64,000 nt of DNA. It comes from Desulfobaculum xiamenense (GTDB lineage: Bacteria > Desulfobacterota > Desulfovibrionia > Desulfovibrionales > Desulfovibrionaceae). The position numbers were made by a program, and so were the translations under genes. The notes under the pieces are model-generated. The model saw only the letters and a program-made list of their open reading frames with translations, made no database searches and was not told the origin of the DNA. Of the stretch, positions 4,902 to 28,060 are shown piece after piece. Location: contig NZ_JAATJA010000004.1 in assembly GCF_011927665.1 (NCBI RefSeq), forward strand, positions 1 to 64,000, in the 5' to 3' direction. The number at the start of each line of letters is the position of its first letter. Positions within the stretch are counted from its first letter, which is position 1.

Positions 4902-5083
4902 TGGGGTAGCCTCCGCGTTGCATGTGGTGTGCGCTTTTGTGCTTCGTTATGTGATGGAATTTTTTTTGTAAATAGATTTGAATTTGTGCTGTAGTGGTGT
5001 TTTTGTGGCGAGCATCCACAGCGTGCGGCGGGGTGGCGCTGTGCATGCCGTTGGTCTGTATTTGAGACAACGTGTATGTGCCG
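4902..5083. promoter_or_regulatory. AT-rich upstream region of the autotransporter gene
   Basis: The stretch 4930-5000 is markedly AT-rich (long T and A runs) compared with its surroundings and lies directly upstream of the minus-strand autotransporter gene. It most likely holds its promoter. No exact promoter elements can be assigned. Confidence 0.4.
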
Positions 5084-5134
5084 CCAACGCAAAAGCGCCC
5101 CGCATCAATGAGGAGCGGGGCGCTTTTGCGTTGG
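5084..5134. terminator. Bidirectional terminator with 20-bp perfect stem
   Basis: CCAACGCAAAAGCGCCCCGC pairs perfectly over 20 bp with the mirror sequence ending GCTTTTGCGTTGG, leaving an 11-nt loop. A and T runs lie inside the stem on both sides, so it can stop transcription in either direction. It ends the NYN-domain gene on the minus strand. Confidence 0.85.
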
Positions 5135-5178
5135 TGCCGGTCGTAGTCGTTCGTGGGCTGGTGTTTTGCGCGTCGTCT

Positions 5179-6426: not shown

Positions 6427-6530
6427 GCCTGACTGCCTGTTGGGATGAACCGATGATTCCCTCGGGTATCACGGCTGGGGGCGGCGGGCAAGATTGGGGG
6501 GAGGGGGCGTGGGTGGAAAAACACACGCAC

Positions 6531-6570
6531 GAGGGCGTCGGACCGTTCGGTCCGACGCCCTCTTTTGTTT
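6531..6570 (-). terminator. Terminator of the chemotaxis receptor gene
   Basis: GAGGGCGTCGGACC and GGTCCGACGCCCTC form a 14-bp stem with a 4-nt loop. On the minus strand it follows the end of the chemotaxis receptor gene; T-rich flanks on both sides suggest it also works from the other direction. Confidence 0.8.
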
Positions 6571-6594
6571 TGCGTATGTGGGTGATGGTCCGGG

Positions 6595-9849: not shown

Positions 9850-11364
9850 TTAGCGCGCGGTGCTCTCGGCGGTGGCGCGGCCCTTGGAGCCGTTGCCCTT
9901 GAAGAACACCGGGATGTCGCGGCGGCCGAGGATGCTGGCGCGCAGCTCTTCTTCGGGCAGCTTGGACCACACGGTCTTGTTGGAGAAGTAGAAGAAGAAG
10001 CCCATCACGACCCAGGCCACGAGGCACCAGCGGGAGGCCACGCTGATGTAGGCCGGGGAGCCGGGGATGAGCAGCAGAACGATGCACATGATGGCGGTCA
10101 GCGCACCGACGATGCAGCAGAACAGGCGGTTGGCCTTGTTGGTCACGTCTTCGCTGCCGAGCAGAACGCGGCGGGCGGCGAGGCAGGTGAACAGGTAGCC
10201 GATGCCGGTACCCACGGAGCTCATGTCCACGATCCACACGACCACGGAGCGACCGGCAAAGGGGGTCAGCAGCACGATGGCGACGGTGAACAGAATGGCC
10301 TTGTAGGGGGTGCGGTACTTGGGATGGATGTCACCGAACCATGCGGGCAGGATGCGGCCACGGGCCATGCTCAGGAGCAGGCGGGAGGTGGCGATGTAGA
10401 AGCCGTTGATGCCGGTGCACACTGCGCCCAGAACCGCGCAGGACAGAACCACAGCGCCGAACTTGCCAAAGGCCATGGTGGCGACGGTGCCGGTCGCCCA
10501 GGCGGTGCCGCCGCTGTTGCGCAGGGCGTCCATCTTGGCGAGCATTTCGGGGTAGGGGATCACGATGCCAACGGCCAGCGTCACGAGGCTGTAGAGCACG
10601 ACGCCGCACAGGATGGCGATGATCATGATATTGCGTGCGCGGGCCGGGTCGAAGGAGAATTCCTCGGCGGCCTGGGGCACGGTGTCGAAGCCCACGAAGA
10701 GGAAGGGCGAGATGGCGAAGATCAGGAGCACGCAGGACAGGGCGGAGCGATGCTCTGCGAACGCGGGAACGAGGTTGCCGAAGCTGGCGGTGTCGAGGGC
10801 GGCGGTGCCGGAGAACAGGGCCACGATGCCGATGGTCAGCATGTAGGCCAGGACCACCTGCAGCTTGCCAGCGAAGCTGATGCCGCGGTAGTTCATCCAG
10901 CCAAAGCCGACGGTGCCGGCGGTCATGAGCAGCACTTCACCCATGTAGACCTGCCAGCCCGCTATGGAATACAGCGGTCCGAACTCGAAGACGCCCGGGA
11001 ACAGGAAGCGGAAGATGAGCGCCAGCGCCGCAATGTCGATACAGACGATGGCGATGTAACCCAGAACGAGCGCCCAGCCGCAGATGAATGCCGCCGTGGG
11101 GCCGAAGCCGACGTAGGCATAGGCGAATGCGCCACCGGCGACGGGGGCGTATTTGATCATGTAGCTGTAGCACACGGCCACGAAGCACAGCAGGAATGCG
11201 CCGATAATGAAGCCGGTCAGGGTGCCGAGGGGGCCGGCCTGGGGCAGGAACATGTCGCCGGGGAGGACGAAGCAGCCCCAGCCGACGATAGAACCGAGAG
11301 CCAGCGCCCAGACCTGCGCGGGCGAAAGGGATTTCTCCAACTGTACCTGTTCAACTTGAGCCAT
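9850..11364 (-). CDS. APC-superfamily amino acid/polyamine permease
   Basis: 504 residues with about twelve membrane helices. The first helix carries the family's LALGSIVGWGCFVLPG loop that binds the substrate amino and carboxyl groups. AAEEFSFDPARARN in the middle is the conserved cytoplasmic loop of APC transporters. The start at 11364 (AGAGG upstream) gives a normal length; the longer frame adds an Arg-rich tail. It lies next to, and divergent from, the DUF4125-TauE pair, with a weak sigma-54-like promoter about 70 bases upstream of the start. This suggests that it imports the substrate, or exports the product, of the glycyl radical pathway. The substrate is not readable from sequence. Confidence 0.85.
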   Translation of the reverse strand: MAQVEQVQLEKSLSPAQVWALALGSIVGWGCFVLPGDMFLPQAGPLGTLTGFIIGAFLLCFVAVCYSYMIKYAPVAGGAFAYAYVGFGPTAAFICGWALVLGYIAIVCIDIAALALIFRFLFPGVFEFGPLYSIAGWQVYMGEVLLMTAGTVGFGWMNYRGISFAGKLQVVLAYMLTIGIVALFSGTAALDTASFGNLVPAFAEHRSALSCVLLIFAISPFLFVGFDTVPQAAEEFSFDPARARNIMIIAILCGVVLYSLVTLAVGIVIPYPEMLAKMDALRNSGGTAWATGTVATMAFGKFGAVVLSCAVLGAVCTGINGFYIATSRLLLSMARGRILPAWFGDIHPKYRTPYKAILFTVAIVLLTPFAGRSVVVWIVDMSSVGTGIGYLFTCLAARRVLLGSEDVTNKANRLFCCIVGALTAIMCIVLLLIPGSPAYISVASRWCLVAWVVMGFFFYFSNKTVWSKLPEEELRASILGRRDIPVFFKGNGSKGRATAESTAR

Positions 11365-11435
11365 GACAAACCTCTTCAGTGTAGGGCGTTCGGGGCGATA
11401 TGCCTTTGTCATCGGGGCAGGGCATACGCAGTCGT

Positions 11436-11451
11436 TGCGGGTACGGTGCCG
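11436..11451 (-). promoter_or_regulatory. Possible sigma-54 promoter of the permease gene
   Basis: Read on the minus strand: CGGCACCGTACCCGCA. GG and GC have the required 12-base spacing and the -24 half (GGCAC) is perfect; the -12 half departs from TTGCA at two bases. It shares its first eight bases with the promoter at 11928-11943. The predicted leader is about 60 nt. Confidence 0.45.
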
Positions 11452-11779
11452 GGACCGGTGTCGGGCCGTGTCCTCGGCGCCCTGCCGTGGAACATGAATT
11501 CGTACGTCTTGCCTTGGGTCTGCCATGGTCTTCCAGCGGTCACATGGCTGTCCTTAGGCTGGTGCGGAGAGGAGCGAACGGTTGTCTCCGCATGCGAAAT
11601 CTCTTCTGGGGAAAGCGTATTCGCGAATCGTGACAGAAAGAGCAAAGAGGATGCCAATACGTGAAAATCTTCACCATGTTTGCATATGCCCGAAAGTATT
11701 GGTGAAAAAAATTGCACTTTGCGCGAGGCTCACGGTGGTGCGCAAAGGAAATATCGTTTTCGTAGGAAATTTTTCTTTT

Positions 11780-11943: not shown

Positions 11944-12103
11944 CGGGCGCCGCTCGTTATTCTTTTCATAAAGGGTGCCGGTTTCGTCGGCGCGGTCCAG
12001 AGGATGGCATTCGTTAGCGATTGCGGATGGTTGTCATCTGGGATTCGGACGAGCAACGAGCGGACGCCCTGATCGTGCAAACGCTATCGGAGAGGAAGAC
12101 GCT

Positions 12104-12658
12104 ATGACTGAAGAACGCCGCGAGGCTCTTGTTGAGGACATTATTGAACGTGAACTGCGCATGTTTCTGGCCGTGAAAACTCGCGGCGGAAAGTCGCTGT
12201 GCCAGGAGCGGCCCGAGTCCTTCCGTATCATGCGGGAGATGACGCACGGCGTGCTGTCCGAGGCCGTTCTGGAGTCCTATCTCGGCGATCTCGTGCGTGC
12301 CGAGGAGGCCGGGCGCAACTTCATGACTGAGAAGTACGCGCTCATGGACGACCTCATTCCCGCCATCAACACCGACCCGCGCATCCGCGTGATTGTCGAG
12401 GCCGAGGCCGACTGGCGCGACGAGGTGTCCGCGCAGTTCCCGAGAACGGTCCAGCGCGATGGCCGCGAGAGCTTCTGCCTGTATCTGCGCTGCGAATTGC
12501 AGACCTATTCCCCGGCGACGCTCACGGCGTACGCCGCCCTTGTTGATGCCGCGCGGAACGAGGGACGAAACCTCGTGCGTGAACGTTATGAAATTCTCAT
12601 GCGCAAGCTCGGCTACGGCTCCCTCGAAGCCTGCGAAGCGCAGTTGGCGGCGCACTAG
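12104..12658 (+). CDS. DUF4125 family protein
   Basis: 184 residues, soluble and acidic. The pattern ERELRMFLAVKTRGGKSLCQ, then SFRIMREMTHGVLSE and SYLGDLVRAEEAGRNFMTEKY, fits the DUF4125 family, whose function is not known to me. It contains two Cys (in KSLCQ and ESFCLYLRCE, the latter with a second Cys) and conserved Arg/Glu positions that could bind a small molecule. AGAGGAAG precedes the ATG. The TauE/SafE gene starts 24 bases after its stop, so the two form an operon behind a sigma-54 promoter, beside the glycyl radical enzyme block. Confidence 0.75.
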   Translation: MTEERREALVEDIIERELRMFLAVKTRGGKSLCQERPESFRIMREMTHGVLSEAVLESYLGDLVRAEEAGRNFMTEKYALMDDLIPAINTDPRIRVIVEAEADWRDEVSAQFPRTVQRDGRESFCLYLRCELQTYSPATLTAYAALVDAARNEGRNLVRERYEILMRKLGYGSLEACEAQLAAH

Positions 12659-12682: not shown

Positions 12683-13417
12683 ATGCCCGATTCCGTATCC
12701 ATACTGGTTTTCTGTGCGTGGCTCGTCGGTGGCTTCGTCTCCGGCGTCAGCGGCATTGGCGGCGCGATGGTCGCCGTGCCCGTGGCCGCCACGGTCATTC
12801 CGATGCACGAACTGATTCCGTTGAGCTGCATTCTCAACGTGGTCATGGACGGCTGCATCGCTTGCATGCATTTCAGGCATTGCAAGGTCTCCGCCCTGTG
12901 GCCCATGCTGGTCGGCTCCCTGCCCGGAGCCGTCATCGGCCTGTTCATCCTCAAGTTCGTGTCCGGAGCCGTGCTGCAGGGGGCGGTTGGCGCGCTGCTC
13001 CTGTACTATGTCTACTGGCAGCATACCTTCCGCGTCACGCAGGTCCATGCGGAGTCGTGGGGCAAGGGTGGAGCCGCGGGCTTTGGTGCCGGGCTCCTCG
13101 GAACGGCCATTTCTTTTGACGGTCCCCCCGTTGGGGCCTACGGCCTGTACATGGGCTGGAATCCCCGCGTGTTTCTGGGGACGCTTGGTGTGTTCTTCAT
13201 CATCCGCGGAACCATGACCTGCGTGCTGCAGGCCGGGGCCGGGCTGTACACGCCGGACGTCCTGCACTACGCGCTCTACGGCGTGCCCGCCACCATGATC
13301 GGAACGCTCTGCGCGTTTCCGGTCGTCCGCCACATCAACGTCGCCACGTTCAGGCGTGTGCTCATGGCGGTCATCGTCATGGCCGGTCTGGTGTGCCTCG
13401 GACGCTCCTTCCTGTAA
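12683..13417 (+). CDS. TauE/SafE family membrane exporter
   Basis: 244 residues, about eight membrane helices in two repeats. The first repeat begins with GGFVSGVSGIGGAMVAVP, the typical TauE/SafE start; the second carries GFGAGLLGTAISFDGPPVGAY. Characterised relatives export sulfite, sulfoacetate or related anions, although the family is broad. Placed next to a glycyl radical enzyme, a sulfonate-derived anion is an attractive but unproven cargo. It is translated from the DUF4125 transcript. It ends 72 bases from the end of the convergent regulator gene. Confidence 0.85.
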   Translation: MPDSVSILVFCAWLVGGFVSGVSGIGGAMVAVPVAATVIPMHELIPLSCILNVVMDGCIACMHFRHCKVSALWPMLVGSLPGAVIGLFILKFVSGAVLQGAVGALLLYYVYWQHTFRVTQVHAESWGKGGAAGFGAGLLGTAISFDGPPVGAYGLYMGWNPRVFLGTLGVFFIIRGTMTCVLQAGAGLYTPDVLHYALYGVPATMIGTLCAFPVVRHINVATFRRVLMAVIVMAGLVCLGRSFL

Positions 13418-13489: not shown

Positions 13490-14995
13490 CTAATCTTCGT
13501 CCTTGATGTCGAGCTGTTTCATCTTGTAGCGCAGGCCCGCGCCGGTGATTTCCATGATGCGCGCCGCCTTGGCCACGTTGCCGCCGGTGACGCGCAGCAC
13601 GTTGCGGATGCACTGTGCCTCGTATTCCTGAAGGCAGGTCTTGAGCGGCACCACGCTGCTGCGTTTGACGTCGGCGTAGTCGTAGTAGTCGCGCTGGAGG
13701 GTGTCCTCGTTCGGTCTGGTTGGCGTGGGCAGGGAGGGGTGGGTGTCGCTGCGCATCTCCATGGAAGCGCACGCCTCGCGGAAGTGGCGGGGTAGTCCCT
13801 CCATTTCGATGGACAAGCGTCCGCCGAGCAGGGCGAGGCTGCCTTCGACCACATGGAGCAGTTCGCGGATGTTTCCCGGCCAGTCGTAGTCCTGAAACAT
13901 CTGCATGACGTCGGCCTCGATGTCGATGCTCGATGCGAGGGGGCGCAACTGCGAGCGGTCGATGAAGGTGCGCGTGAGCAGGGGGATGTCCTGCCTGCGG
14001 CTTCGCAGCGCGGGCACGGAGATGCCGACCACGGCGAGGCGGTAGAACAGGTCGCGGCGTAGGAGGCCTTCTTCCACGGCCTTCAGTGGGTCCTCGTTGA
14101 GGATGCTGATGATGCGCACGTCCACCGGGATTTCCGTGTGGGAGCCGATGCGTCGTACACGCTTTTCCTGAAGCACGCGCAGAAGCTTGGCCTGAAGGCC
14201 CATCGGCATGGAGTTCAGTTCGTCCAGCAGCATGGTGCCGCCGTCGGCCTCCTCGAAGAGGCCGGGCTTGTCTCCCGCGTCGGTGTATGCGCCCTTGGCC
14301 GTACCGAAGAGGATGCCCTCCAGCAGGTTTTCTGGGATGGCCGCGCAGTTCACTGGGATGAGCGGCTGATCGCGGCGTTCGCCGCCCGCATGGATGGCCT
14401 GCGCGAAGAGCTCCTTGCCCGTGCCGCTCTCGCCCCAGATCATGACCGGCGACGAGGTCTGCGCTGCGGTGCGGGCCTCGCGGATGACGTCGAGCAGGGT
14501 CGGGTCTTCTCCGATGAGGCTGTCGAAGGTGTAGAACTCGTAGCTGGTCTTGCCCTTGGGCGGTGCGGCCTTGGGCTGGCGGCGCTTGCGCGCCACCAGC
14601 GACGTGGTGCCTGTCCAGATGGTGAAGGCGATGACGCCGTCCTTCTTTCCGTGGTCGAAGAGGGGGAAGAAGTCGGTGACGGTGCTGGCCAGATAATTGT
14701 TGGTCGTCTTGTAGAAATAGGACTTCTTGAGAAGCGGCTCGCTCTTCTGGAGGCACTCGATGGTGGGGATGCACTCCAGCTCGTGGGGGACATAGAGGCT
14801 GGTGATGTGCTGGCCCACCACGGGCACGCGGTGGAAGCCGTCCACGCGGCGTTGGATGTCGTTCATGTACTCGCAGATGCCGTCGGCATCCACCACGGCC
14901 ACGCCGATGCACATGTCGTCCCAGATGGCGGTCATGGAGGGCGTTAACACGCTCTCCCTGTTGACGTTCAAAAATTTCTTTCTGTCAAAACGCAA
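13490..14995 (-). CDS. PAS-domain sigma-54-dependent transcriptional activator
   Basis: 501 residues. A PAS-like sensor (about 20-135, WDDMCIGVAVVDADGICEYMN) precedes the AAA+ domain: Walker A GESGTGKE at 188-195, Walker B GGTMLLDE at 252-259, and the sigma-54 contact loop reading GAYTDA at 235-240 instead of GAFTGA. A Fis-type helix-turn-helix ends the protein (GNVAKAARIMEITGAGLRYKMKQLDI). The start is a TTG at 14995 with AGAGG upstream. It has no receiver domain, so it should sense a ligand through PAS. It is divergent from the glycyl radical enzyme gene and is the obvious activator of the sigma-54 promoters on both sides. Confidence 0.88.
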   Translation of the reverse strand: MRFDRKKFLNVNRESVLTPSMTAIWDDMCIGVAVVDADGICEYMNDIQRRVDGFHRVPVVGQHITSLYVPHELECIPTIECLQKSEPLLKKSYFYKTTNNYLASTVTDFFPLFDHGKKDGVIAFTIWTGTTSLVARKRRQPKAAPPKGKTSYEFYTFDSLIGEDPTLLDVIREARTAAQTSSPVMIWGESGTGKELFAQAIHAGGERRDQPLIPVNCAAIPENLLEGILFGTAKGAYTDAGDKPGLFEEADGGTMLLDELNSMPMGLQAKLLRVLQEKRVRRIGSHTEIPVDVRIISILNEDPLKAVEEGLLRRDLFYRLAVVGISVPALRSRRQDIPLLTRTFIDRSQLRPLASSIDIEADVMQMFQDYDWPGNIRELLHVVEGSLALLGGRLSIEMEGLPRHFREACASMEMRSDTHPSLPTPTRPNEDTLQRDYYDYADVKRSSVVPLKTCLQEYEAQCIRNVLRVTGGNVAKAARIMEITGAGLRYKMKQLDIKDED

Positions 14996-15296
14996 TTTTC
15001 ACAACCTCTGGGAAATGGGTGCTGGCAAGGTGAATGGCCGAGTGCGTTCCTGCCTGGCGAACCGCAAAATAAAAAATATTTTGGAAAAGGAAAGAAATTT
15101 TTCGAAATCAAAATTTTTTCCAGGGCGCCACGAGTAGGGCATGTTCGCAAGAAAGTGGCGTAATTCCATGGTGTTGGTTCATTTTTCGATCGTGATTTTT
15201 GGTCTGGCATGGCCCGTGCAAGTTATAAAAATAACAAGCGAGCGAACATCGTTTAAAACTTCTTCTGGGAAAATTTCGAACGAACAGGAGACCGAG
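14996..15296. promoter_or_regulatory. Divergent control region of regulator and glycyl radical enzyme
   Basis: 301 AT-rich bases. It holds the sigma-54 promoter at 15205-15220 and AT-rich near-palindromes of the type GAAATTTTTCGAA (15094-15106) and GGGAAAATTTCGAAC (15267-15281). A related GAAATTTTTGAA lies on the minus strand at 14967-14978 inside the start of the regulator gene. These resemble the element at 11766-11775 in the other control region. Confidence 0.55.
15205..15220 (+). promoter_or_regulatory. Sigma-54 promoter of the glycyl radical enzyme operon
   Basis: TGGCAT-GGCCC-GTGCA: the -24 GG and -12 GC have correct spacing, and only two bases depart from TGGCAC-N5-TTGCA. The transcript should begin near 15232, leaving a leader of about 65 nt before the ATG at 15297. 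Confidence 0.7.
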
Positions 15297-17756
15297 ATGA
15301 CCAATACTTCTTGCGAAAACACCTGCTGCTGCGACAACGCCGCCGCGACCCCCAAGGGCTACGGCATCAACTGGGATACCGCCGAAGCGCGCGTCAAGGA
15401 GCTCAAGGACTTCCTCATGTCTGCTCCGCAGATCATGGATCCTGAGCGCCTGCAGTGCATGGAAGAGGTTTATGACGAGTTCGCGGGCGAACCCGTCTTC
15501 TACATCCGCGCCAAGCTTTTCGAGCGCGTTCTGACCAAGAAGAAGATCTTCCTCGACGGCAACCCCCTCGTGGGTACCCTGACCGGCGTGCGCGCCGGCG
15601 TGTACGCCTACCCCGAGTGGAACGTCGCCTGGATCAAGGAAGAGATGCAGATGGCCAAGATGGCCTCCCTCGGCGAGATGAAGATTCCTCAGGAGACTCA
15701 GGATCTTCTGGAGAAGACCTACAAGCGCTGGAAGGGCTGCACCTGCATCGACCTGAACGACAAGATGTTCAAGGACAAGTACGGCTTCAATCCCAAGCCG
15801 TTTGCCAAGGCCGGCATGTACTACGAGAACGTCAGCGTGGCCAGCGGCTCCGGCATCGCCGACTACCCGCTCGTCCTGAACAAGGGCCTGCGCTGGCTCA
15901 TCGACGACGTGAAGGAGCGCTTCCGCAACTGCCCCACCACGCTGGCCAACAAGGAAAAGCATGACCTCTACCGCGCCATGATCGTCGCGATGGAAGCCGT
16001 CATCACCCATTCTCACCGCTACGCAGAGCTGGCCGAGAAGACCGCCGCCGAGGAGACCGATCCCAAGGCCAAGGCCGAGCTGCTCGAGATCGCCGAGATC
16101 TGCCGCCGCGTACCTGAATTTCCGGCCCGCAACTTCCGCGAGGCCATTCAGTCCTTCTGGTTCATCCACCTCGCCATCGAGGTCGAGCAGATGGCCTGCG
16201 CCACCTCGCCCGGCCGCTACGGCCAGTACATGTACCCCTTCTACAAGAAGGACATCGAGGAAGGCAATCTGACCCGCGAGCAGGTGCTCACGCTGCTCAA
16301 GTTCCAGTGGATCAAGCACCTTGAGCTTGGCGAGTACCAGGGCGCTTCCTACGCCATGACCCTGTCCGGCCACACCGGCCAGACCATCACCATCGGCGGC
16401 GTGGACGCCAACGGCAACGACGCCAGCACCGAACTGGAAGAGCTGCTGCTCGAGACCCAGACCACGATGAAGAACATTCAGCCCACGCTGACCCTGCTCT
16501 ATCATCCCAAGATGAAGGATTCCTACCTTCAGAAGGTTGTGGAGTGCGTCCGCGGCGGCTCCGGCCAGCCCCAGATCCTCAACAACAACGTGGTCATCCA
16601 GCGTACGCTCGCCCGCTTTGCCCAGTACGAGGATGGCATCACCCTCGAAGACGCCCGCAACTGCGGCAACTACGGCTGCGTGTCCACCGGCGTCTGCGGC
16701 AAGGGTAGCTTCATCACGCAGGAAGACCAGCCCTGCCTCGCCAAGGTCATTGAGCTGATGCTCAACAACGGCAAGTGCCCCGTGACCAAGAAGCAGGTGG
16801 GTGTGGAGACCGGCGACCCGCGCGAGTTCAAGACCTTTGACGAGCTCTACGAGGCCACCAAGAAGCAGCTGGACCACCTCTTCAGCATGTCCCGCAAGCA
16901 CTCCGACCTGAGCCAGATGGCCCGCGTCCAGGTGGTTCCGAGCATCTTCCGCTCCGCCATGTACGACGGCTGCATCGAGAAGGGCATCTGCGAGGAGGCC
17001 GGTGGTACCCGCTACCCGCAGGTCAACCCCATCATGACCGCCGGTATCGACGCCGCCAACTCCCTGCTGGCCATCAAGCATCTGGTGTTCGACACCAAGA
17101 AGCTGACCATGGAGCAGCTGCTTGAGGCCCTCAAGGCCAACTTCGAGGGCTACGAGGACATCCGCAAGATGTGCTTCGAGGCTCCCAAGCACGGCAACGA
17201 TTACCCCGAAGTGGAAGGACTCGTGCAGCAGTTCTACCGCGACGTGGACGCCATCCATCACGCTCAGGGCCCGGACTGCTTCGGCTACCGCACCCCGCTG
17301 GATGCGTACTCCCTGTCGTACCACAACTACTTCGGTTCGCTCATGGGCGCGCTGCCCACCGGCCGCAAGGCTGGCACGGCACTGACCGACGGTAGCGTCT
17401 CCGCCATGCCCGGTTCCGACCATGAAGGCATCACCGCCCTCATCAAGTCCGGTGCGGAAGCCATCGACACCGTCCGCTACGGCGCGAACCACTTCAACGT
17501 GAAGGTGAACCCGCAGGTGCTGGAAGGCCCGGCCGGCGCACGTACCCTGATCTCCCTGATCAAGACCTACTGCGACTTCGGCGGCTCCCACATCCAGTTC
17601 AACTGCGTCAGCTCCGAGACTCTGAAGGACGCGCAGGCCAACCCGCAGGAATACCCCGATCTGGTCGTCCGCGTGGCAGGCTTCAGCGCCTACTTCACCC
17701 GCCTCGACAAGGGCGTGCAGAACGAGATCATCAAGCGTACCGAGTACAAGAACTAG
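15297..17756 (+). CDS. Glycyl radical enzyme of unassigned reaction (glycerol-dehydratase-like fold, Cys-Val-Ser active site)
   Basis: 819 residues. The glycyl radical motif RVAGFSAYF places the radical at Gly795, 24 residues from the end, and the thiyl Cys lies at Cys461 in NYGCVSTGVCGKG. In B12-independent glycerol dehydratase and its lyase relatives this site reads GCVETG, with a Glu two residues after the Cys acting as base; here Ser463 replaces it. Pyruvate formate-lyase would need Cys-Cys. So the enzyme is neither a typical dehydratase, a choline- or isethionate-type lyase, an arylacetate decarboxylase nor a formate-lyase. X-succinate synthases also lack this Glu. The N-terminus has four Cys within residues 6-12. 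AGGAG precedes the ATG at 15297; upstream codons are unlikely to be used. The activase follows 139 bases later. Confidence 0.9.
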   Translation: MTNTSCENTCCCDNAAATPKGYGINWDTAEARVKELKDFLMSAPQIMDPERLQCMEEVYDEFAGEPVFYIRAKLFERVLTKKKIFLDGNPLVGTLTGVRAGVYAYPEWNVAWIKEEMQMAKMASLGEMKIPQETQDLLEKTYKRWKGCTCIDLNDKMFKDKYGFNPKPFAKAGMYYENVSVASGSGIADYPLVLNKGLRWLIDDVKERFRNCPTTLANKEKHDLYRAMIVAMEAVITHSHRYAELAEKTAAEETDPKAKAELLEIAEICRRVPEFPARNFREAIQSFWFIHLAIEVEQMACATSPGRYGQYMYPFYKKDIEEGNLTREQVLTLLKFQWIKHLELGEYQGASYAMTLSGHTGQTITIGGVDANGNDASTELEELLLETQTTMKNIQPTLTLLYHPKMKDSYLQKVVECVRGGSGQPQILNNNVVIQRTLARFAQYEDGITLEDARNCGNYGCVSTGVCGKGSFITQEDQPCLAKVIELMLNNGKCPVTKKQVGVETGDPREFKTFDELYEATKKQLDHLFSMSRKHSDLSQMARVQVVPSIFRSAMYDGCIEKGICEEAGGTRYPQVNPIMTAGIDAANSLLAIKHLVFDTKKLTMEQLLEALKANFEGYEDIRKMCFEAPKHGNDYPEVEGLVQQFYRDVDAIHHAQGPDCFGYRTPLDAYSLSYHNYFGSLMGALPTGRKAGTALTDGSVSAMPGSDHEGITALIKSGAEAIDTVRYGANHFNVKVNPQVLEGPAGARTLISLIKTYCDFGGSHIQFNCVSSETLKDAQANPQEYPDLVVRVAGFSAYFTRLDKGVQNEIIKRTEYKN

Positions 17757-17895: not shown

Positions 17896-18789
17896 ATGAG
17901 TCAGGGAATGATCTACAATATCCAGCGCATGTCCATCCATGACGGCCCGGGTCTGCGGACCACGGTGTTCCTCAAGGGCTGTCCCCTGCGCTGTCTGTGG
18001 TGCAGCAATCCGGAATCCCAGAAGACCACGCCGCAGATGATGTATTTCGAGAACATGTGCACCGGCTGCGGCACCTGTATGGACGTGTGCCCCAACGGCG
18101 CAGTGGTGCCCGTGGACGGAAAGTTCGGCCGCGACATCGAGAAGTGTACCGATTGCGGCCTGTGCGCCAAGTCCTGCCCCTCCAAGGCCCGTGAGATGTC
18201 CGGTCGGATCATGACCGTGGACGAGGTGATGGAGATCGTGCGCAAGGACATGCTGTTCTACGAGAATTCGGGCGGCGGCGTGACCTTCGGCGGCGGCGAG
18301 CCCACCTCCGGCGGCCAGTTCTTCCTCGACATGCTTCAGGCCGCGCACGACGCTGGCCTCCATGTGACCGTGGACACCTGCGGCTTCTGCCCCGAGGAGC
18401 GCTTCGACAAGACCCTCGAGCTCGCGGACCTTTTCCTGTTCGATTGCAAGCACATGGATCCCGAGGCGCACAAGCTGCTCACCGGGCAGGACAACACCAT
18501 AATTTTGCGCAACATGCGCGCGGCCTTGAATTCCGGAAAGGAAGTGCGTATTCGCATGCCGCTCATGCCCGGCATGAACGACTCCGATGAGAATATCGCC
18601 GCCATGGCCGCATTTTTCGCTGAGTTCGGTCGCAACGAGATCGAAGTCATGCCGTGCCACGCCTTCGGGCGGAACAAGTACGTGGCGCTGGGCAAGCCGC
18701 TTCCGGCCGTCTCCCAGTATGCGCCCGAAGAGTTGAAGGTCGTTTGGGACCGATTTGCCAAGCACGGGCTCACTCCCGTCTTGGTGTAA
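17896..18789 (+). CDS. Glycyl radical enzyme activating enzyme (radical SAM)
   Basis: 297 residues. The radical SAM triad is Cys29-x3-Cys33-x2-Cys36 (GCPLRCLWC). Two ferredoxin-type [4Fe-4S] motifs follow: Cys55/58/61/65 and Cys84/87/90/94. The GGGVTFGGGEPT glycine-rich SAM-binding segment is present. This layout is standard for activases of the non-PFL glycyl radical enzymes, which abstract a hydrogen from the enzyme's Gly using 5'-deoxyadenosyl radical. A GCGGAG Shine-Dalgarno precedes the ATG. It lies in the same operon as the enzyme and is followed 25 bases later by the selenoprotein gene. Confidence 0.93.
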   Translation: MSQGMIYNIQRMSIHDGPGLRTTVFLKGCPLRCLWCSNPESQKTTPQMMYFENMCTGCGTCMDVCPNGAVVPVDGKFGRDIEKCTDCGLCAKSCPSKAREMSGRIMTVDEVMEIVRKDMLFYENSGGGVTFGGGEPTSGGQFFLDMLQAAHDAGLHVTVDTCGFCPEERFDKTLELADLFLFDCKHMDPEAHKLLTGQDNTIILRNMRAALNSGKEVRIRMPLMPGMNDSDENIAAMAAFFAEFGRNEIEVMPCHAFGRNKYVALGKPLPAVSQYAPEELKVVWDRFAKHGLTPVLV

Positions 18790-18814: not shown

Positions 18815-19108
18815 ATGTTTACCCTTACCATCCCCGAAGAGATGCTGGAGAAGCTCCGCACCATGCTCGAGGACGAGGACGAGGACACCTGCGTCCGCCT
18901 GCGCGAGTACAAAGTCGGCGGCGGTTGACACGCCAAAATCGTGCTCGGTCTGGGCATGGACGAATTCGATGAGGACGAGGACGCGCGCATTGAGGTGGAC
19001 GGCATGCCGTTCATCGCGGAGAAGGACTACCTTGAGAAGTACGGAACCGCTTTCGCGCTTTCCTTCGGCGAGAACAATGAAGTCGTGTTGAGCCCCGTGG
19101 AGGCCTAG
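18815..19108 (+). CDS. HesB/IscA-like selenoprotein (UGA codon 38 read as selenocysteine)
   Basis: 97 residues when the in-frame TGA at 18926-18928 is read as selenocysteine. The product is very similar over its whole length to the 97-residue protein at 19355, which has Cys at position 38 (GSGC versus GGG-Sec). The layout, a beta-strand CVRLREYK then G-G-Sec, KIVLGLGMDE and DGMPFIAEKDYLEKYG, fits the HesB/IscA (Fe-S_biosyn) fold, but the C-terminal CGC motif of true IscA is absent. A SECIS-like hairpin follows the TGA at 18939-18959. It is very acidic (EDEDEDT). It sits 25 bases behind the activase, in the same operon. HesB-like selenoproteins have been predicted before in related anaerobes. 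A simple nonsense mutation is unlikely because codons after TGA stay conserved. Confidence 0.88.
18939..18959 (+). promoter_or_regulatory. Bacterial SECIS-like hairpin
   Basis: TCGTGCTC and GGGCATGG pair over 8 bp (including G-U pairs) around a 5-nt apical loop GGTCT whose first bases are GG. The loop begins 18 nt after the TGA. Bacterial SECIS elements need exactly this: a short stem with a G in the first two loop positions, about 16-37 nt behind the UGA. Confidence 0.7.
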
Positions 19109-19144: not shown

Positions 19145-19185
19145 GCGCCCCTTGTCGGAAACGACAGGGGGCGTTTTCGTTTTTC
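19145..19185 (+). terminator. Terminator after the selenoprotein gene
   Basis: GCGCCCCTTGTCG and CGACAGGGGGCG pair around a GAAA tetraloop and are followed by TTTTCGTTTTT. It ends, or partly ends, the glycyl radical enzyme operon before the Cys-containing paralogue. Confidence 0.85.
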
Positions 19186-19354: not shown

Positions 19355-19648
19355 ATGTTTGAAGTGACCATTCCCGAAGAGATGCTGGAGAAGTTGCGTT
19401 CCATGTTGGAGGACGAGGACGAGGGCACCTGTGTGCGCCTGCGCGAGTACAAGCACGGCTCCGGGTGCAGCTCGAAGATCATCCTCGGTCTTGGCATGGA
19501 GGAACGTGATGAGGACGAAGACGTGAGCGTCGAGGTGCAGGGCGTGCCCTTCATCGCGGACAAGGATTTCCTGGTGAAGTACGGAACGACCTTCACCCTC
19601 GAATTCAATGAGAATGGCGAAGTCGTGATGCACGCCGTGGAGGCCTGA
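19355..19648 (+). CDS. HesB/IscA-like protein, Cys paralogue of the selenoprotein
   Basis: 97 residues, the same length as the selenoprotein at 18815 and aligned with it without gaps. Cys38 stands where the other has selenocysteine. As there, the C-terminal CGC of IscA is missing, so a classical iron-sulfur scaffold role is doubtful. It contains one other Cys (Cys26, shared). AAAGGAG precedes the ATG. It has terminators both before and after, so it may have its own promoter in 19186-19354, where I see no clear elements, or depend on read-through. Confidence 0.82.
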   Translation: MFEVTIPEEMLEKLRSMLEDEDEGTCVRLREYKHGSGCSSKIILGLGMEERDEDEDVSVEVQGVPFIADKDFLVKYGTTFTLEFNENGEVVMHAVEA

Positions 19649-19680: not shown

Positions 19681-19719
19681 AAGCGCCCCGTGCCGGTTCG
19701 GCGCGGGGCGCTTTTTTGT
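19681..19719 (+). terminator. Terminator after the Cys HesB-like gene
   Basis: AGCGCCCCG and CGGGGCGCT form the outer stem, with an inner GCCG/CGGC part, followed by T6. It closes the block that began with the glycyl radical enzyme. Confidence 0.88.
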
Positions 19720-22806: not shown

Positions 22807-23766
22807 ATGGCTGACGATCTGCTTACCCACGCCGAAATTGCCCGCCAGCTCGGCGTTTCGGTCTCGACCATCAAAAACTACCGCAGCAAGTTTCCGGAGT
22901 GTCTGCCAGTGGCCCGGCGCGGGAAGCCCCTGCGCTTCGCTGCCGTGTCCCTTGCCGTGTGCCGGACGGTGCACGAGGGCTTCGGCGAGGGACTGTCCAC
23001 GGAACGCATCCGCGAGACGCTCTACGAGCGCTTTCCGCAGTATGCCAAGGCGCGGCGAGCCCGCGCGGCCTCGCGGGACAATCGGCGCGAGCGTGTGGGG
23101 GAGCCTGCGCTGGAGCGCTCCCTCGCGCGGATGGAGGACGTGTACGCGGCGGTTATCTCGCGCATGAACGAGCTTGAGGGGCGCACGACCGTCGCTCCGA
23201 CGGATGGCGACGGCCCCCTGCGTGACGAGGTGCTTCGCCTGCGCGACGAGGTGGGGCGGTTGCGCCGCGCCATCGAGACCGGCAGCGCTGTTGCCGAACG
23301 CACGACACCGCAGGTGGACGGGCCGGCGTCGCCGCAAGAGTCGCAGGGCGTTGCCGATGGGCCGTCCGTCACGAAGGGAGAGACCCCCCGCGCACGGGAG
23401 CGCGTGGCGGACGACGTGGTGGCCGACATTCTGGGGCTGCCGCTGGTGATTCGCTCTCCGGGTGGCGAGTATCTGGGCGTGACCCTGCCCGGTGGCGGGC
23501 ACCTGGACGTGTCGGCCATGCTGGCGAGGCTTGGCGCGCGGTCCGCCGCGGCGGACTGGACCCGCAGCGCCGGAGGCTGGACGCTGCTCCTAGGCGAAGG
23601 GGTAGCGGCCGGGCGGGAATTTGATTTGCGACCGGTGACCACGCCTCGCGGGAATCGGGTGGCGCTATTGTGCGGGATGCGCGTTGCGGGGCGTCCGGCG
23701 GATGCCGGTCTGCTGCGGTCCTTCCTGCGGACGCTGCGCGGCGGGGCCGAGGCGGGTGGGGCGTGA
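22807..23766 (+). CDS. MerR-like DNA-binding protein with coiled coil
   Basis: 319 residues. The N-terminus HAEIARQLGVSVSTIKNYRSKF and the following PVARRGKPLRFAAVSLA form a winged helix-turn-helix of the MerR type. Residues about 95-165 include charged heptad-like stretches (LRDEVLRLRDEVGRLRRAI) that should form a coiled coil. A low-complexity Pro/Ser/Thr linker leads to a C-terminal domain (about 205-315) that I do not recognise. GGAGG lies before the ATG. Its stop is only 43 bases before the chosen start of the large activase gene, so they are probably co-transcribed and it may regulate that operon. Confidence 0.65.
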   Translation: MADDLLTHAEIARQLGVSVSTIKNYRSKFPECLPVARRGKPLRFAAVSLAVCRTVHEGFGEGLSTERIRETLYERFPQYAKARRARAASRDNRRERVGEPALERSLARMEDVYAAVISRMNELEGRTTVAPTDGDGPLRDEVLRLRDEVGRLRRAIETGSAVAERTTPQVDGPASPQESQGVADGPSVTKGETPRARERVADDVVADILGLPLVIRSPGGEYLGVTLPGGGHLDVSAMLARLGARSAAADWTRSAGGWTLLLGEGVAAGREFDLRPVTTPRGNRVALLCGMRVAGRPADAGLLRSFLRTLRGGAEAGGA

Positions 23767-23809
23767 TCATGGCGGGAGGCGAATTGTTCGGGACGACGGG
23801 GGCAAAGCC

Positions 23810-26800
23810 ATGAATGCTTTGGACCGTGGGGCGCGCGGTGGGCGCGCATGCGCGGGCGGGCTTGATGTCGGCTCGGTGAGCGTGAAGCTCGTGGTGTGCG
23901 ATGGCGATGGCGTGGCGCTTCTACAGCGCTACGAACGGCATCGCGGTCAGCCCGGGCGCGTGGCGCTGGTCATCCTGCGCGAGGCCGCACAGCGTTTCCC
24001 CGGCCTGCCACTGCTGGCCACCGGGACGGCGGGGCGACGCATCGCCGACGCCATGGGCGTTTCGCACATCACCGAACTGACCGCCCACGCCCTTGGCATG
24101 GCCCGGCTGCATCCCGAGGTGCGCTCCATCATCGAGATGGGCGGAGAGGACTCCAAGCTCATCCTGCTCGAAGACGGCCGCGTGGCGGATTTCGCGCTCA
24201 ATTCCGTGTGCGCCGCCGGAACCGGGGCCTTTCTCGACCAGCAGGCCGAGCGCATGCGTCTGTCCATCGAGGACTTCGGCAGACTCGGTCTGGCCTGTGC
24301 GCGGCCGCCGCACATCGCCGGGCGGTGCAGCGTGTTCGCCAAGTCGGACATGATTCACCTTCAGCAGATCGCCTGCCCGGTACAGGACATCGTGGGCGGG
24401 CTGTGCATGGCTGTGGCGCGTAATTTCCGGGGAGCCATTGCCCGTGGGCGCACCCTGTGCCCGCCCGTGGCCTTCATCGGCGGCGTGGCCCTCAATCCGG
24501 CCATGCGTCGGGCCTTTGCCGAGGTCTTTTCCCTGTCCGAACTCATGGTGCCGGACCCGCCGACCACAGTGGGAGCACTGGGCGCGGCGCTGGCCGTGCT
24601 GCGCGATGGCGCAGGCGTGCCCCTGACCGATGCCGCGTGCGAGGCGCTGGAGCGTTCCCTCGACGCGGCCGATGCCGGTGCCGACCGTCGCGGCCCGCTT
24701 CGTGAGGAGGGGGGTGATTTCGACCTGCGGCATCCGTGCGCCGTGTCCGACGAGGGCACCGCCCCTGCCGCGACGGAGCGCATCCCTGCCTACATGGGCA
24801 TCGACGTCGGCTCCATCAGCACCAATCTCGCCGTCATCGACGTCGAGGGCCGCCTGCTGGCCCGGCGCTATCTGCGTACGGCCAGCCGTCCCATCGAGGC
24901 CGTGCGCACCGGGCTTCGCGAGATAGGCGAGGAGCTTGGCGGGCGGGCGGACATTCTCGGCGTGGGCACCACCGGTTCCGGGCGCTACATGATCGCCGAC
25001 TTCACGGGCGCGGACGTGGTGCGAAACGAGATCACCGCGCAGGCCCGCGCCGCTGCGTTCATCGATCCGCAGGTGGACACCATTTTCGAGATAGGCGGGC
25101 AGGATTCCAAGTACATACGCATCGACGACGGCGTCATTACCGGCTTCGAGATGAACCGGGCCTGCGCCGCCGGGACGGGGTCGTTTCTTGAGGAGCAGGC
25201 CGAGCGGCTCGACGTGTCCGTCATCGGCGAATTCGAGGACCGTGCGCTGGAGGCCCCCGCTCCGTGCCGCCTTGGCGAGCGGTGCACGGTGTTTATGGAG
25301 AACAGCCTCATGGCTGGGCTGTCGCGCGGGGCGCAGGTGGATGACCTACTGGCCGGGCTGGCCTATTCCATCGTCGAGAACTACCTCGGGCGGGTGGTCG
25401 GCTCCGGACGCGTGGGGCACAACGTTTTCTTTCAGGGCGGCACGGCTTCGAACCGCGCTGTCGTGGCCGCCTTCGAGCGCCACCTCGGGCGCAGGGTCAC
25501 CGTGCCCCCGAACCACGACGTCACCGGGGCCATCGGCATGGCCCTCATTGCCCGCGACCACATGCGTGCGGCTGGTACGGCCAGCGCGTTTCGCGGGTTC
25601 GACCTCGCCCTGCGCGGCTACGAGCAGGAGTCCTTTACCTGCAAGGGCTGCGACAACCGCTGCGAGATCAACGCGGTACGCATCGAGGGCGTTGATGACA
25701 AAATGTATTACGGAGGGCGCTGCGAAAAGTACGACATGCGCCGGCCAACGTTGCCCGAGGGCGAGGACCTGTTCCGCATGCGTGAGCGCGCCCTGCGCGA
25801 GGAGCATGACCACCGCGCGGCGGCTCACGTCCGGCGCGGTGTCGCGGCCCGTCGGGGGCGCATCGGGCTGCCGTACGCCTTTTTCATGCATGATCAATTG
25901 CCCTACTGGTCCACGCTGTTGTGGGAACTGGGCTTCGAACCCGTCCTGTCCCCGCGCACCGGGGCGGGGGTGGTCCGGCTGGGGAGCGAGGCCGTGCTGG
26001 CCGATGTCTGCCATCCCCTGCGCGCGGCCATCGGGCACGCCCTGCATCTCGCGCTGCCCGTCGAGCGGGGCGGCGAGGGGTGCGAGACGCTGTTCATCCC
26101 GTCCTTCGTGAACATGAACGCTCCGGACGATGCGCAGGGCGACGGCTTGGCCTGTCCGCTGACGCAAAGCTATCCGTTTCAGGTGCGTCAGGCCGCGCCG
26201 ACGTGTACGGTCGTCGTTCCGGCCATCCAATGGCGGCATGGGCGGGATGCGGTACTGCGCGCATTGCGCCGGGCCTTCACGCCGTGGCGGGTGTCCCTGC
26301 TGGAGCTTGGCCGGGCTGAGTCCATCGCCAGCGAGGCGCAGGACGCCTTCGAGGCTCGGTTGCGCCAGCGGGGGCGCGAGGTGCTCGATGCTCTTGATGG
26401 GCGTGCGCTGGTCGTGGTCGGTCGGCCTTATAACGCCTTCGACCCCGGCATGAACCTCGGCCTGCCGGACCGCATCGCGGCTCTCGGCGTGCGGGCCATT
26501 CCTATGGACTTCCTGCCGCTTGAGCCGCTCCCCGAGCGCTGGCGGGGCATGTATTGGCGGTCCGGGCAACGCATGCTCGCGGCGACCCGCGCCATCCGCC
26601 GCGATTCGCGTCTGTATCCCGTGTACATGGGGAGTTTTTCCTGCGGGCCGGACACGTTCATCCACAAGCTCGTGGAGCGCGAGTTGGGCGGAACCCCCGC
26701 CCTGTTCCTTGAAGTGGACGAGCATGGGGCGGATGCCGGACTCGTCACGCGGGTGGAGGCCTTTCTGGATAGCATCGACGCCCGGCGCGCGACGCGCCGC

Positions 26801-28060
26801 GAGGAGCGGGCGTCCTCGCTGTCGCGGCGTGCTCCGGCGGCATTCACCGGACGCGGGCGCACACTCCTTCTGCCGCGCATGTCCGATGGGGCGTACGGTC
26901 TCGAATCCGCGTTTCGGGCCTGCGGGGCCGAAGCGCGCGTTCTGCCCGAGACCACGCCCGAGGCCGTGGCCATGGCCCGCGCGCAGAGTTCCGGCAAGGA
27001 ATGCTACCCCTTCACCGTCACCCTCGGCGACATGCTTAGCGCCTGCGCCGCTCCGGAATTCCGTTCGGACCGTGCGGCCTTCTTCATGCCCGGCGGCACC
27101 GGTCCCTGTCGCTTCGGCCAGTACGGACCTGCCCAGCGCATGGTGCTCGACGACCTTGGCTATGGCGACGTGCCCGTGTATTCCCCGGAGCAGTCCGTGC
27201 GACTCTACGACGACATGGGCATCGTTGGGCGTGATCTCGCGCGTCGCGCATGGCGCGCCATCGTCGCCTTCGACCTGCTTGCCAAGTGCCGAAACGAGGT
27301 CGGTCCCCATGCCTTTGATTCCGCGCAGGTCGCCGCATGTCACGCCGAATCCATGGAGCGCCTGCGCCGCGCGCTACTCGGTTCCGCGGACGACGTGGAC
27401 CGCGCCCTTGCCCGCATCCGTGACGACTTCCGCTCCCTGCGCAACGGTCCGCAGCCCGGCGTGCCGCGCATCGGCATCGTCGGTGAAATCTTCGTGCGTT
27501 CCAACGAGTTCTGCAACGAGCGCCTGTGTCGATCCGTGGAAGCCCTTGGCGGCGAGGCGTGGCTTGCGCCCATCGGCGAGTGGATCGCCTACGTCAACGC
27601 CATGTCCCTGCGCGACGCCGCACGCCTGCGCAGGCCCGGACGCTACCTCGCCCTGCGCCTCACTCGGATGGTGCAGACCGCCATTCACCACCGCTGCGAA
27701 AGCGTCTTCGACGGCATGCTACGGACCACCGGCGAACCCGCGACCTCGGCTACGCTACGCGCCGCCGCTCCCTATCTGGGCGACTGCCTGCGTGGCGAGG
27801 CCGTGCTCAGCGTCGGAACCGCTGTGCACATGATCCGCAGCGGATGCCACGGCATCATCAACGCCATGCCCTTCGGCTGTATGCCCGGAACCGTGGTCAC
27901 GGCGCTCATGCGCGGCGTGACCCGCCACCACGGCGTGCCCTGCATCAGCCTGCCCTTCGACGGCACGCGCTCGTCGTCCAACCGTCTCCAACTCGAAGCG
28001 TTCATGGATCAGGCACGCCAACGCGCCATGGCGCAGGGGGAGGGGGAGGCCCGAGCGTAG
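23810..28060 (+). CDS. Acyl-CoA dehydratase activase, double ASKHA plus DUF2229-type fusion
   Basis: 1416 residues. Two tandem BadF/BadG/BcrA-type ATPase domains: the first from GLDVGSVSVKLVVCDGD (near residue 17) and the second from YMGIDVGSISTNLAVID (near 330). Each has the EMGGEDSK or EIGGQDSKYI loop and the CAAGTGAFL or CAAGTGSFL segment that carries the Cys ligand of the shared [4Fe-4S] cluster. Then comes a Cys-rich stretch (CKGCDNRCEIN) and a long DUF2229-like and HgdB-like C-terminal region. Such giants act as ATP-driven electron injectors for 2-hydroxyacyl-CoA dehydratases or related Fe-S enzymes, here without the dehydratase subunits beside it. ATG at 23810 was chosen by the domain start; the frame is open further upstream. 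Confidence 0.88.
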   Translation: MNALDRGARGGRACAGGLDVGSVSVKLVVCDGDGVALLQRYERHRGQPGRVALVILREAAQRFPGLPLLATGTAGRRIADAMGVSHITELTAHALGMARLHPEVRSIIEMGGEDSKLILLEDGRVADFALNSVCAAGTGAFLDQQAERMRLSIEDFGRLGLACARPPHIAGRCSVFAKSDMIHLQQIACPVQDIVGGLCMAVARNFRGAIARGRTLCPPVAFIGGVALNPAMRRAFAEVFSLSELMVPDPPTTVGALGAALAVLRDGAGVPLTDAACEALERSLDAADAGADRRGPLREEGGDFDLRHPCAVSDEGTAPAATERIPAYMGIDVGSISTNLAVIDVEGRLLARRYLRTASRPIEAVRTGLREIGEELGGRADILGVGTTGSGRYMIADFTGADVVRNEITAQARAAAFIDPQVDTIFEIGGQDSKYIRIDDGVITGFEMNRACAAGTGSFLEEQAERLDVSVIGEFEDRALEAPAPCRLGERCTVFMENSLMAGLSRGAQVDDLLAGLAYSIVENYLGRVVGSGRVGHNVFFQGGTASNRAVVAAFERHLGRRVTVPPNHDVTGAIGMALIARDHMRAAGTASAFRGFDLALRGYEQESFTCKGCDNRCEINAVRIEGVDDKMYYGGRCEKYDMRRPTLPEGEDLFRMRERALREEHDHRAAAHVRRGVAARRGRIGLPYAFFMHDQLPYWSTLLWELGFEPVLSPRTGAGVVRLGSEAVLADVCHPLRAAIGHALHLALPVERGGEGCETLFIPSFVNMNAPDDAQGDGLACPLTQSYPFQVRQAAPTCTVVVPAIQWRHGRDAVLRALRRAFTPWRVSLLELGRAESIASEAQDAFEARLRQRGREVLDALDGRALVVVGRPYNAFDPGMNLGLPDRIAALGVRAIPMDFLPLEPLPERWRGMYWRSGQRMLAATRAIRRDSRLYPVYMGSFSCGPDTFIHKLVERELGGTPALFLEVDEHGADAGLVTRVEAFLDSIDARRATRREERASSLSRRAPAAFTGRGRTLLLPRMSDGAYGLESAFRACGAEARVLPETTPEAVAMARAQSSGKECYPFTVTLGDMLSACAAPEFRSDRAAFFMPGGTGPCRFGQYGPAQRMVLDDLGYGDVPVYSPEQSVRLYDDMGIVGRDLARRAWRAIVAFDLLAKCRNEVGPHAFDSAQVAACHAESMERLRRALLGSADDVDRALARIRDDFRSLRNGPQPGVPRIGIVGEIFVRSNEFCNERLCRSVEALGGEAWLAPIGEWIAYVNAMSLRDAARLRRPGRYLALRLTRMVQTAIHHRCESVFDGMLRTTGEPATSATLRAAAPYLGDCLRGEAVLSVGTAVHMIRSGCHGIINAMPFGCMPGTVVTALMRGVTRHHGVPCISLPFDGTRSSSNRLQLEAFMDQARQRAMAQGEGEARA

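Follow-up and report, generated by a model that had tools for sequence, protein, structure and literature searches.

Does an in-frame TGA in a small gene behind a glycyl radical enzyme (GRE) activase specify selenocysteine (Sec), and what might the product be doing beside such an enzyme? The locus that raises this question lies in a window of 64,000 nucleotides from Desulfobaculum xiamenense, by which we mean the whole stretch of DNA that was analysed, and its features are collected in Table 1. The frame has 97 codons, of which the 38th is TGA and 59 lie beyond it, and it starts 25 bases past the activase stop at 18789. The first-pass annotation of this DNA had called it a HesB-like selenoprotein gene, pointing to the agreement between the frame past the TGA and a neighbouring paralogue that has Cys38. 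This agreement was borne out: the two sequences align without a gap over 97 positions at 72% identity, with cysteine in the paralogue at the place of the TGA.

Table 1. Coordinates of the features of the window, with the evidence for each.
Feature	Coordinates	Strand	Evidence or remark
APC-type amino acid permease, start uncertain	9850..11526	-	relative at 22/36 clade A loci
DUF4125 protein, start uncertain	11975..12658	+	relative at 19/36 clade A loci
TauE/SafE-family exporter	12683..13417	+	relative at 26/36 clade A loci
Sigma-54 activator, divergent to GRE	13490..14995	-	relative at 36/36 clade A loci
Sigma-54 (-24/-12) promoter-like site upstream of GRE	15205..15220	+	similar sites at 33/36 loci
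Glycyl radical enzyme, uncharacterised class	15297..17756	+	frame open from 15141 on; probable start ATG 15297
GRE activase (radical SAM, ferredoxin-type domain)	17896..18789	+	TIGR02494 368 bits, cut-off 174
Sec-containing A-type-fold (ErpA-related) protein gene, predicted	18815..19108	+	97 residues, Sec38; NF033940 135.5 bits (cut-off 65)
In-frame TGA, codon 38, predicted selenocysteine	18926..18928	+	frame reading and TGA alignment column
Bacterial SECIS-like hairpin	18939..18959	+	8 bp; loop GGUCU 18947-18951; support from comparison
Intrinsic terminator-like hairpin after Sec gene	19145..19174	+	terminator scan
Cys38 paralogue of the selenoprotein	19355..19648	+	NF033940 138.9 bits
Intrinsic terminator-like hairpin after Cys gene	19681..19713	+	terminator scan

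We searched 348 genomes of the order with the profile of NF033940 (ErpA_rel), the family whose cut-off the window protein exceeds twofold (Table 1). The search gave a match in 81 genomes, and one over the cut-off in 52. For comparison we took 87 members, 80 of them over the NF033940 cut-off, made up of the two in the window and 85 typed places in other genomes. Outside this set stand a TGA-bearing member of locus L110 (G330:C5:114303, 47.8 bits; G-numbers denote genomes and L-numbers loci of the comparison set), a match at G148:C31 (39.7 bits), the lower matches and the two members of G361, a genome that is counted in the survey of selA below. Residue 38 is encoded by TGA in 47 members and is Cys in 38 and Asp in two, and all 47 TGAs fall in a single alignment column. 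The alternation of TGA and Cys that the first-pass annotation had proposed to look for among homologues is therefore seen, and relatives keep the frame past the TGA, a point on which the same annotation had staked its reading. The differences at codon positions 1, 2 and 3 past the TGA and the SECIS, taken from 25 of the 47 Sec genes (all from clade A, that is, loci whose GRE is at least 75% identical to the window's), were 0.256, 0.217 and 0.578, respectively, indicating that the part downstream of the TGA is under protein-coding constraint.

On a tree of the 87 members built from 98 columns, in which many forks are weak, the Sec/Cys label changes at least 15 times, with 10 changes forced by well-supported branches. 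That several tandem pairs cluster by locus suggests that duplication occurred repeatedly and that the residue changed afterwards. On the simplest reading, the tandem Cys copy probably stands in for the Sec protein without need of selenium; in M. maripaludis, Sec and Cys isoforms are described as being switched by selenium (PMC11097638). The two Asp38 members, at L093:3441-3755 and L095:6405-6740, are third tandem members in which Asp replaces Sec/Cys38, and they enter neither the Sec nor the Cys count.

Bacterial decoding of UGA as Sec calls on a hairpin, and the earlier annotation had placed one of 8 bp, with a 5-nt loop starting in GG, 18 nt after the TGA. The stem and loop are indeed there, the arms at 18939-18946 and 18952-18959 being able to pair round the loop; the 18 nt, however, is the distance from the TGA to the loop, and the stem itself begins at 10 nt. 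Folded singly, the window hairpin is not significant (7 of 8 pairs, -9.2 kcal/mol, z -0.58, with 57 of 200 shuffles folding equally well). Its position relative to the TGA is fixed across the Sec genes, and comparison among these gave a much clearer result. The mean number of stem pairs in the Sec genes (n=47) is 7.57 of 8, compared with 6.07 after shuffling of synonymous codons (500 rounds with pooled codon usage; s.d. 0.13, highest 6.40) and 5.58 in the Cys genes, and a complete stem of eight pairs is found in 30 of 47 Sec genes as against none of 38 Cys genes. In the 47-row alignment, which has 41 distinct rows, 94.2% of cells are paired (88.2% in shuffles) and 17 cells have changed on both sides of a pair (4.0 in shuffles), neither value being reached in any of the 500 rounds. 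A weaker measure, which counts the pairs showing at least one double change, gave 4 compared with 2.1 and was reached in 26 of 500 rounds. When the partners were slid out of register, the paired cells fell to 26-49%. Since related sequences can beat shuffles, the codon control weighs more here than the counting of pairs. These data demonstrate that the SECIS stem is conserved past what protein coding requires, the comparison being the decisive evidence.

The genome of the window also has the means to decode the codon. The first-pass annotation had proposed a search for selA, selB, selC and selD, and had counted a lack of selenocysteine machinery against itself; every one of these genes is present over its cut-off (selB 394 bits, selA 599, selD 337 and a best tRNA-Sec match of 80.5). 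The selD gene (G000:C5:132442-133365) itself has one in-frame TGA, so that the selenophosphate synthetase is probably a selenoprotein too. We looked for selA in 56 genomes, of which 47 are Sec-bearing (46 among the 87 members, and G361). It was over the cut-off in 44 of the 47, compared with two of the eight genomes with Cys members only; in the other six Cys-only genomes all selB matches were below the cut-off. Two of the three Sec-bearing genomes without selA (G070 and G074, 83-84% complete) have selB over the cut-off. In the third, G329 (96% complete, in about 220 contigs), whose TGA-bearing member lies at L098:8012-8302, no selA or selB reaches the cut-off. Taken together, it is close to certain that UGA codon 38 is decoded as Sec, the product being predicted from the sequence. 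Genes of this kind would be cut short or overlooked if annotation takes the TGA as a stop.

What kind of protein is it? It scores over the cut-off of NF033940 and stays far below the cut-offs of its better-known relatives, with 27.2 bits against NF038090 (IscA_HesB_Se; cut-off 85) and 21.5 against ErpA (cut-off 117); at E 0.001, TIGR01911 gave no match. The Cys copy falls narrowly short of Pfam Fe-S_biosyn (25.7 bits, cut-off 26.3), which the Sec copy does not match. The AlphaFold2 model, made with the 52-row alignment drawn from the 87 members and with Cys standing in for Sec, has a pLDDT of 92, and the best PDB match found for it by Foldseek is IscA (1s98, E 1.6e-4, TM 0.71). Six PDB chains lie below E 0.001, namely 1s98, 1r94, 9a4q (a chain of an integrative model), 2apn (hi1723), 2d2a (SufA, TM 0.68) and 1nwb (Aquifex AQ_1857). 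The model thus gives the Sec protein the A-type fold of IscA, ErpA and SufA.

IscA has three cluster-binding cysteines, two of them in a C-terminal CxC. No such C-terminal pair was found in the aligned NF033940 members, leaving Sec/Cys38 as the only near-invariant chalcogen; R28, G35 and C/U38 are the sole invariant positions in the 52-row alignment, and Cys26 is present in 50 of 54 members of the LREY type compared with 5 of 33 others. With one conserved chalcogen, the window protein cannot bind a cluster in the manner described for IscA. It differs from IscA, ErpA and SufA in having no CxC, in placing Sec at the single conserved chalcogen and in standing with a GRE.

The first-pass annotation had added that the family itself was not new, HesB-like selenoproteins having been predicted in Desulfovibrio-type bacteria. 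Such proteins are known in the same order: they were listed earlier in Desulfovibrio (PMC1794560), DVU_1382 is given under this name in another paper (PMC1914089), and Table 1 of a 2026 review enters them as TIGR01911 with the motif UxGP, naming NF033940 in none of its rows (PMC13188914). They are small and IscA-related and have a single Sec in the N-terminal half, as the window protein does, but they carry UxGP and a Cys-rich C-terminal tail, whereas the window protein has GGGUHAK round Sec38 and no such tail. UxGP is found in none of the 47 Sec members of the alignment. TIGR01911-type matches at E 1e-6 occur in 234 of the 348 genomes of the order, the window's own included, none of them over the cut-off. 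We inspected 12 loci of this type. Each encodes a protein that carries UxGP or CxGP and has a Cys-rich tail, at least four have a Cys paralogue nearby, and the 1.9-3.2 kb examined round each showed neither GRE nor activase. In some genomes (for example, G088) the two kinds of match lie at different places, and the order thus seems to harbour two distinct IscA-fold families side by side. The scores against NF038090 and TIGR01911, the motif and the separate loci rule out the known UxGP family as the home of the window gene, which belongs to NF033940. The UxGP family, too, is seen as adjoining Sec/Cys pairs with Cys-rich tails, at L131, L132, L135 and L137.

The neighbourhood of NF033940 genes is nearly constant. 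Of the 80 members over the cut-off, tandem copies counted singly, 77 have a same-strand GRE of one superclade (GREs at least 45% identical to the window's) upstream within 3 kb. The three misses are a member at a contig start (L061), one with no GRE nearby (L097) and one in G088 (L058) with a CutC-type GRE next to it on the opposite strand and a GRE of the class about 12 kb away. A separate search starting from the enzyme found 62 GRE places in 54 of the 348 genomes. At 56 of these a member follows no more than 3 kb downstream; 50 of these matches pass the cut-off of 65, and the other six, from clade C, are weak, with 33.7 to 50.7 bits. Of the six GRE places without a member, four run into a contig end within 0.8 kb, and two, at 48-49% identity, do not. 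(Our table of downstream members has 66 rows, four of which fall outside the 62: fragments in L056, L092 and L093, and L117 of G361.) In G361, which belongs to another family of the phylum, the same Sec/Cys tandem stands beside a GRE 58% identical to the window's, and a locus of this kind is present in Desulfovibrio piger ATCC 29098.

As a control we examined the 91 GREs (Pfam PF02901) of 28 member-carrying genomes. Every one of the 32 GREs of the class has a same-strand member downstream, compared with 1 of the 59 others; as these genomes were picked for carrying a member, the first figure is partly a matter of choice and only the second is informative. A general role for all GREs is ruled out by this second figure. 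The sole exception among the 59 is L110:13435-17266 in G330. Here the GRE shares about 29% identity with that of the window and is accompanied by an activase and a small Sec protein (17000-17266) of 55.8 bits (cut-off 65), so that a comparable partner may exist for a second type of GRE. A further two of the 59 are near a member that is not downstream of them: the CutC-type GRE of G088, with the member on the opposite strand, and an HpsG of G265, with the member upstream, behind a clade A GRE. The almost constant position of members beside one GRE class suggests that the selenoprotein is its dedicated partner.

The activase, 25 bases upstream, had been singled out in the earlier annotation as what seemed new in the gene's company. 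The spacing is as described and the company holds across the order, but the GRE is part of it at least as much as the activase. At clade A loci the activase stands between GRE and member in 35 of 35 cases, compared with 3 of 16 loci at 57-74% identity, at several of which it is on the other strand; the small gene therefore follows the GRE more closely than it follows the activase. At the clade B GRE locus L102 of G330, a weak member (17064-17342) comes right after an activase (16139-17029), separate from the two that adjoin the GRE.

The GRE has both domains expected of such an enzyme, PF02901 (PFL-like, 527.5 bits) and PF01228 (Gly_radical, 103.5 bits), with a Cys loop GCVS and a radical loop RVAGFSAYFT. 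It shares these domains, a catalytic Cys, the radical loop and an activase with ferredoxin-type domains with the characterised enzymes HypD, CutC, IslA, HpsG and indoleacetate decarboxylase, yet it falls below every NCBIfam equivalog cut-off listed. The highest score is against HypD (501 bits, cut-off 1100), followed by indoleacetate decarboxylase (487, cut-off 1100), HpsG (470, cut-off 1000) and CutC (429, cut-off 1050), so that it attains at most half of each of these four cut-offs; IslA was compared through the PDB only. A further difference lies in the Cys loop. The CXE motif is the mark of GRE eliminases (PMC8473560), and it is absent from all 63 GREs at 48% identity or more, which have CVS, CVG, CVA or CVT, none of them showing Glu; the alignment includes three other GREs, with CVE, CAE and CVE. 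The missing CXE makes this probably a GRE class of different chemistry. An AlphaFold model of the GRE made without an alignment had a pLDDT of 35. The GRE of L060 (G250, about 4516-6928), in a draft genome, has one in-frame TGA.

The locus has regulatory features of its own. Four terminator-like sites were found in the stretch, compared with a mean of 1.6 in shuffles, and those behind the two small genes (Table 1) suggest that the Sec gene ends the transcription unit of the GRE, with the Cys gene probably transcribed separately. Sigma-54 pattern matches in the window alone are not above chance (8, with 12.2 expected). A sigma-54-like site upstream of the GRE is present at 33 of the 36 clade A loci, compared with 9% of mononucleotide shuffles, by a looser pattern that was picked after the window's site had been seen; about three of the 33 (L080, L083 and L087) look poor. 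One of the 36 loci (L126) has a GRE fragment at the end of a contig, and neighbours were counted as present anywhere up to about 8 kb either side of a locus. At the 17 loci of 57-71% identity, DUF4125 occurs seven times and TauE and the APC permease not at all. Together the TauE exporter, the amino acid permease, DUF4125 and the TRAP and ABC transporters point in several substrate directions. At L064:7402-7929, a putative redox protein with a C-GCAxxG-C-C pattern lies between the activase and the Sec gene.

We propose, with a probability of roughly two in three, that the window gene encodes a Sec/Cys accessory protein dedicated to this uncharacterised GRE without CXE, its decoding as a selenoprotein included. 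An accessory role is what the gene neighbourhood makes most likely, and how the protein might dock and act is an inference. On very strong sequence evidence, the SECIS hairpin just past the UGA helps the cell's own SelA, SelB, SelC and SelD to insert Sec at position 38; the small protein would dock on the GRE or on its activase. The selenolate or thiolate of residue 38 could there be a ligand to iron or to an Fe-S cluster shared between the subunits; alternatively, it could be a donor of electrons or hydrogen that keeps the radical machinery working. A bolder version makes the Sec-bearing IscA-fold protein the obligate partner of a new functional class of GRE without CXE, with the selenolate as iron ligand or radical-site reductant; we put this forward tentatively, as something that would more probably fail than hold. 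To our knowledge no selenoprotein has been known in a GRE system before, and the bolder version, if true, would provide the first, together with a new fold of GRE accessory protein.

The main rival reading makes the protein a dedicated Fe-S carrier, one that supplies the activase with its clusters, as ErpA and IscA do for their clients elsewhere. The IscA fold and the NCBIfam name ErpA_rel speak for it, as does the activase immediately upstream, which matches several Fe-S domains and lies between GRE and member throughout clade A. A carrier would, however, have to do without the C-terminal CxC pair, with nothing invariant besides R28, G35 and C/U38, and at 13 of the 16 loci at 57-74% identity no activase stands between GRE and member. 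Moreover, other GREs need an activase too, and those of the same genomes have a downstream member in only 1 of 59 cases. We therefore consider a carrier unlikely, if still a serious competitor.

A role on the substrate or product side, for example, in binding sulfite, persulfide or a metal with no contact to the GRE, would suit the strong nucleophilicity of Sec and the presence of the TauE/SafE exporter at 26 of 36 clade A loci and of the C-GCAxxG-C-C protein at 10 of 36. The transporters vary by clade, however, TauE being lost from view at 57-71% identity (0 of 17), whereas the small protein stays with the GRE, and we regard such a role as quite improbable. That the TGA is a true stop, or that the gene is decaying with a relic frame downstream, is a reading we reject as scarcely credible: the insignificant fold of the single hairpin and the TGA of G329 could be cited for it, but it would have to account for the 47 aligned TGAs, a SECIS conserved past coding constraint, the codon-position signal and the complete machinery in the window's genome. 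The accessory protein dedicated to the GRE, decoded with Sec, is the reading we retain.

Small proteins that accompany a GRE have precedents in the beta and gamma subunits of BSS, the gamma subunit of HPAD and the beta, gamma and delta subunits of MASS; for the window protein such a role is proposed from gene neighbourhood. The small accessory subunits of BSS and HPAD are described as proteins of 7-10 kDa that bind [4Fe-4S] clusters, the beta subunit of BSS as governing thiyl radical formation, with the suggestion that its cluster quenches unproductive radicals (PMC12590467, PMC12358834). The BSS, HPAD and MASS subunits have HiPIP-like or rubredoxin-like folds and hold metal via Cys, whereas the window protein has a predicted IscA fold and one Sec or Cys; the precedent set by BSS and HPAD is functional, not homologous. 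One of the two papers, from 2025, remarks that further GRE accessory subunits may await identification (PMC12590467), and the NF033940 Sec/Cys protein is a concrete candidate for one.

The function of HesB-like selenoproteins has been called unclear despite selenium labelling in M. maripaludis (PMC11097638). The window protein is predicted to share their fold, and the strong hint that its genomic setting gives of a partner makes a function testable. Selenoproteins, the IscA fold and GREs are all known kinds; what is new, as far as the literature was searched, is the assignment of Sec to the NF033940 group and the link between this group and a class of GREs that lack CXE, and among open-licence PMC papers, judged by title and the start of the abstract, we found none describing an NF033940 Sec subfamily. 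Elsewhere in the window, at 23684-28060, an open frame of 1458 amino acids resembles, as judged by eye, a fused 2-hydroxyacyl-CoA dehydratase activase protein.
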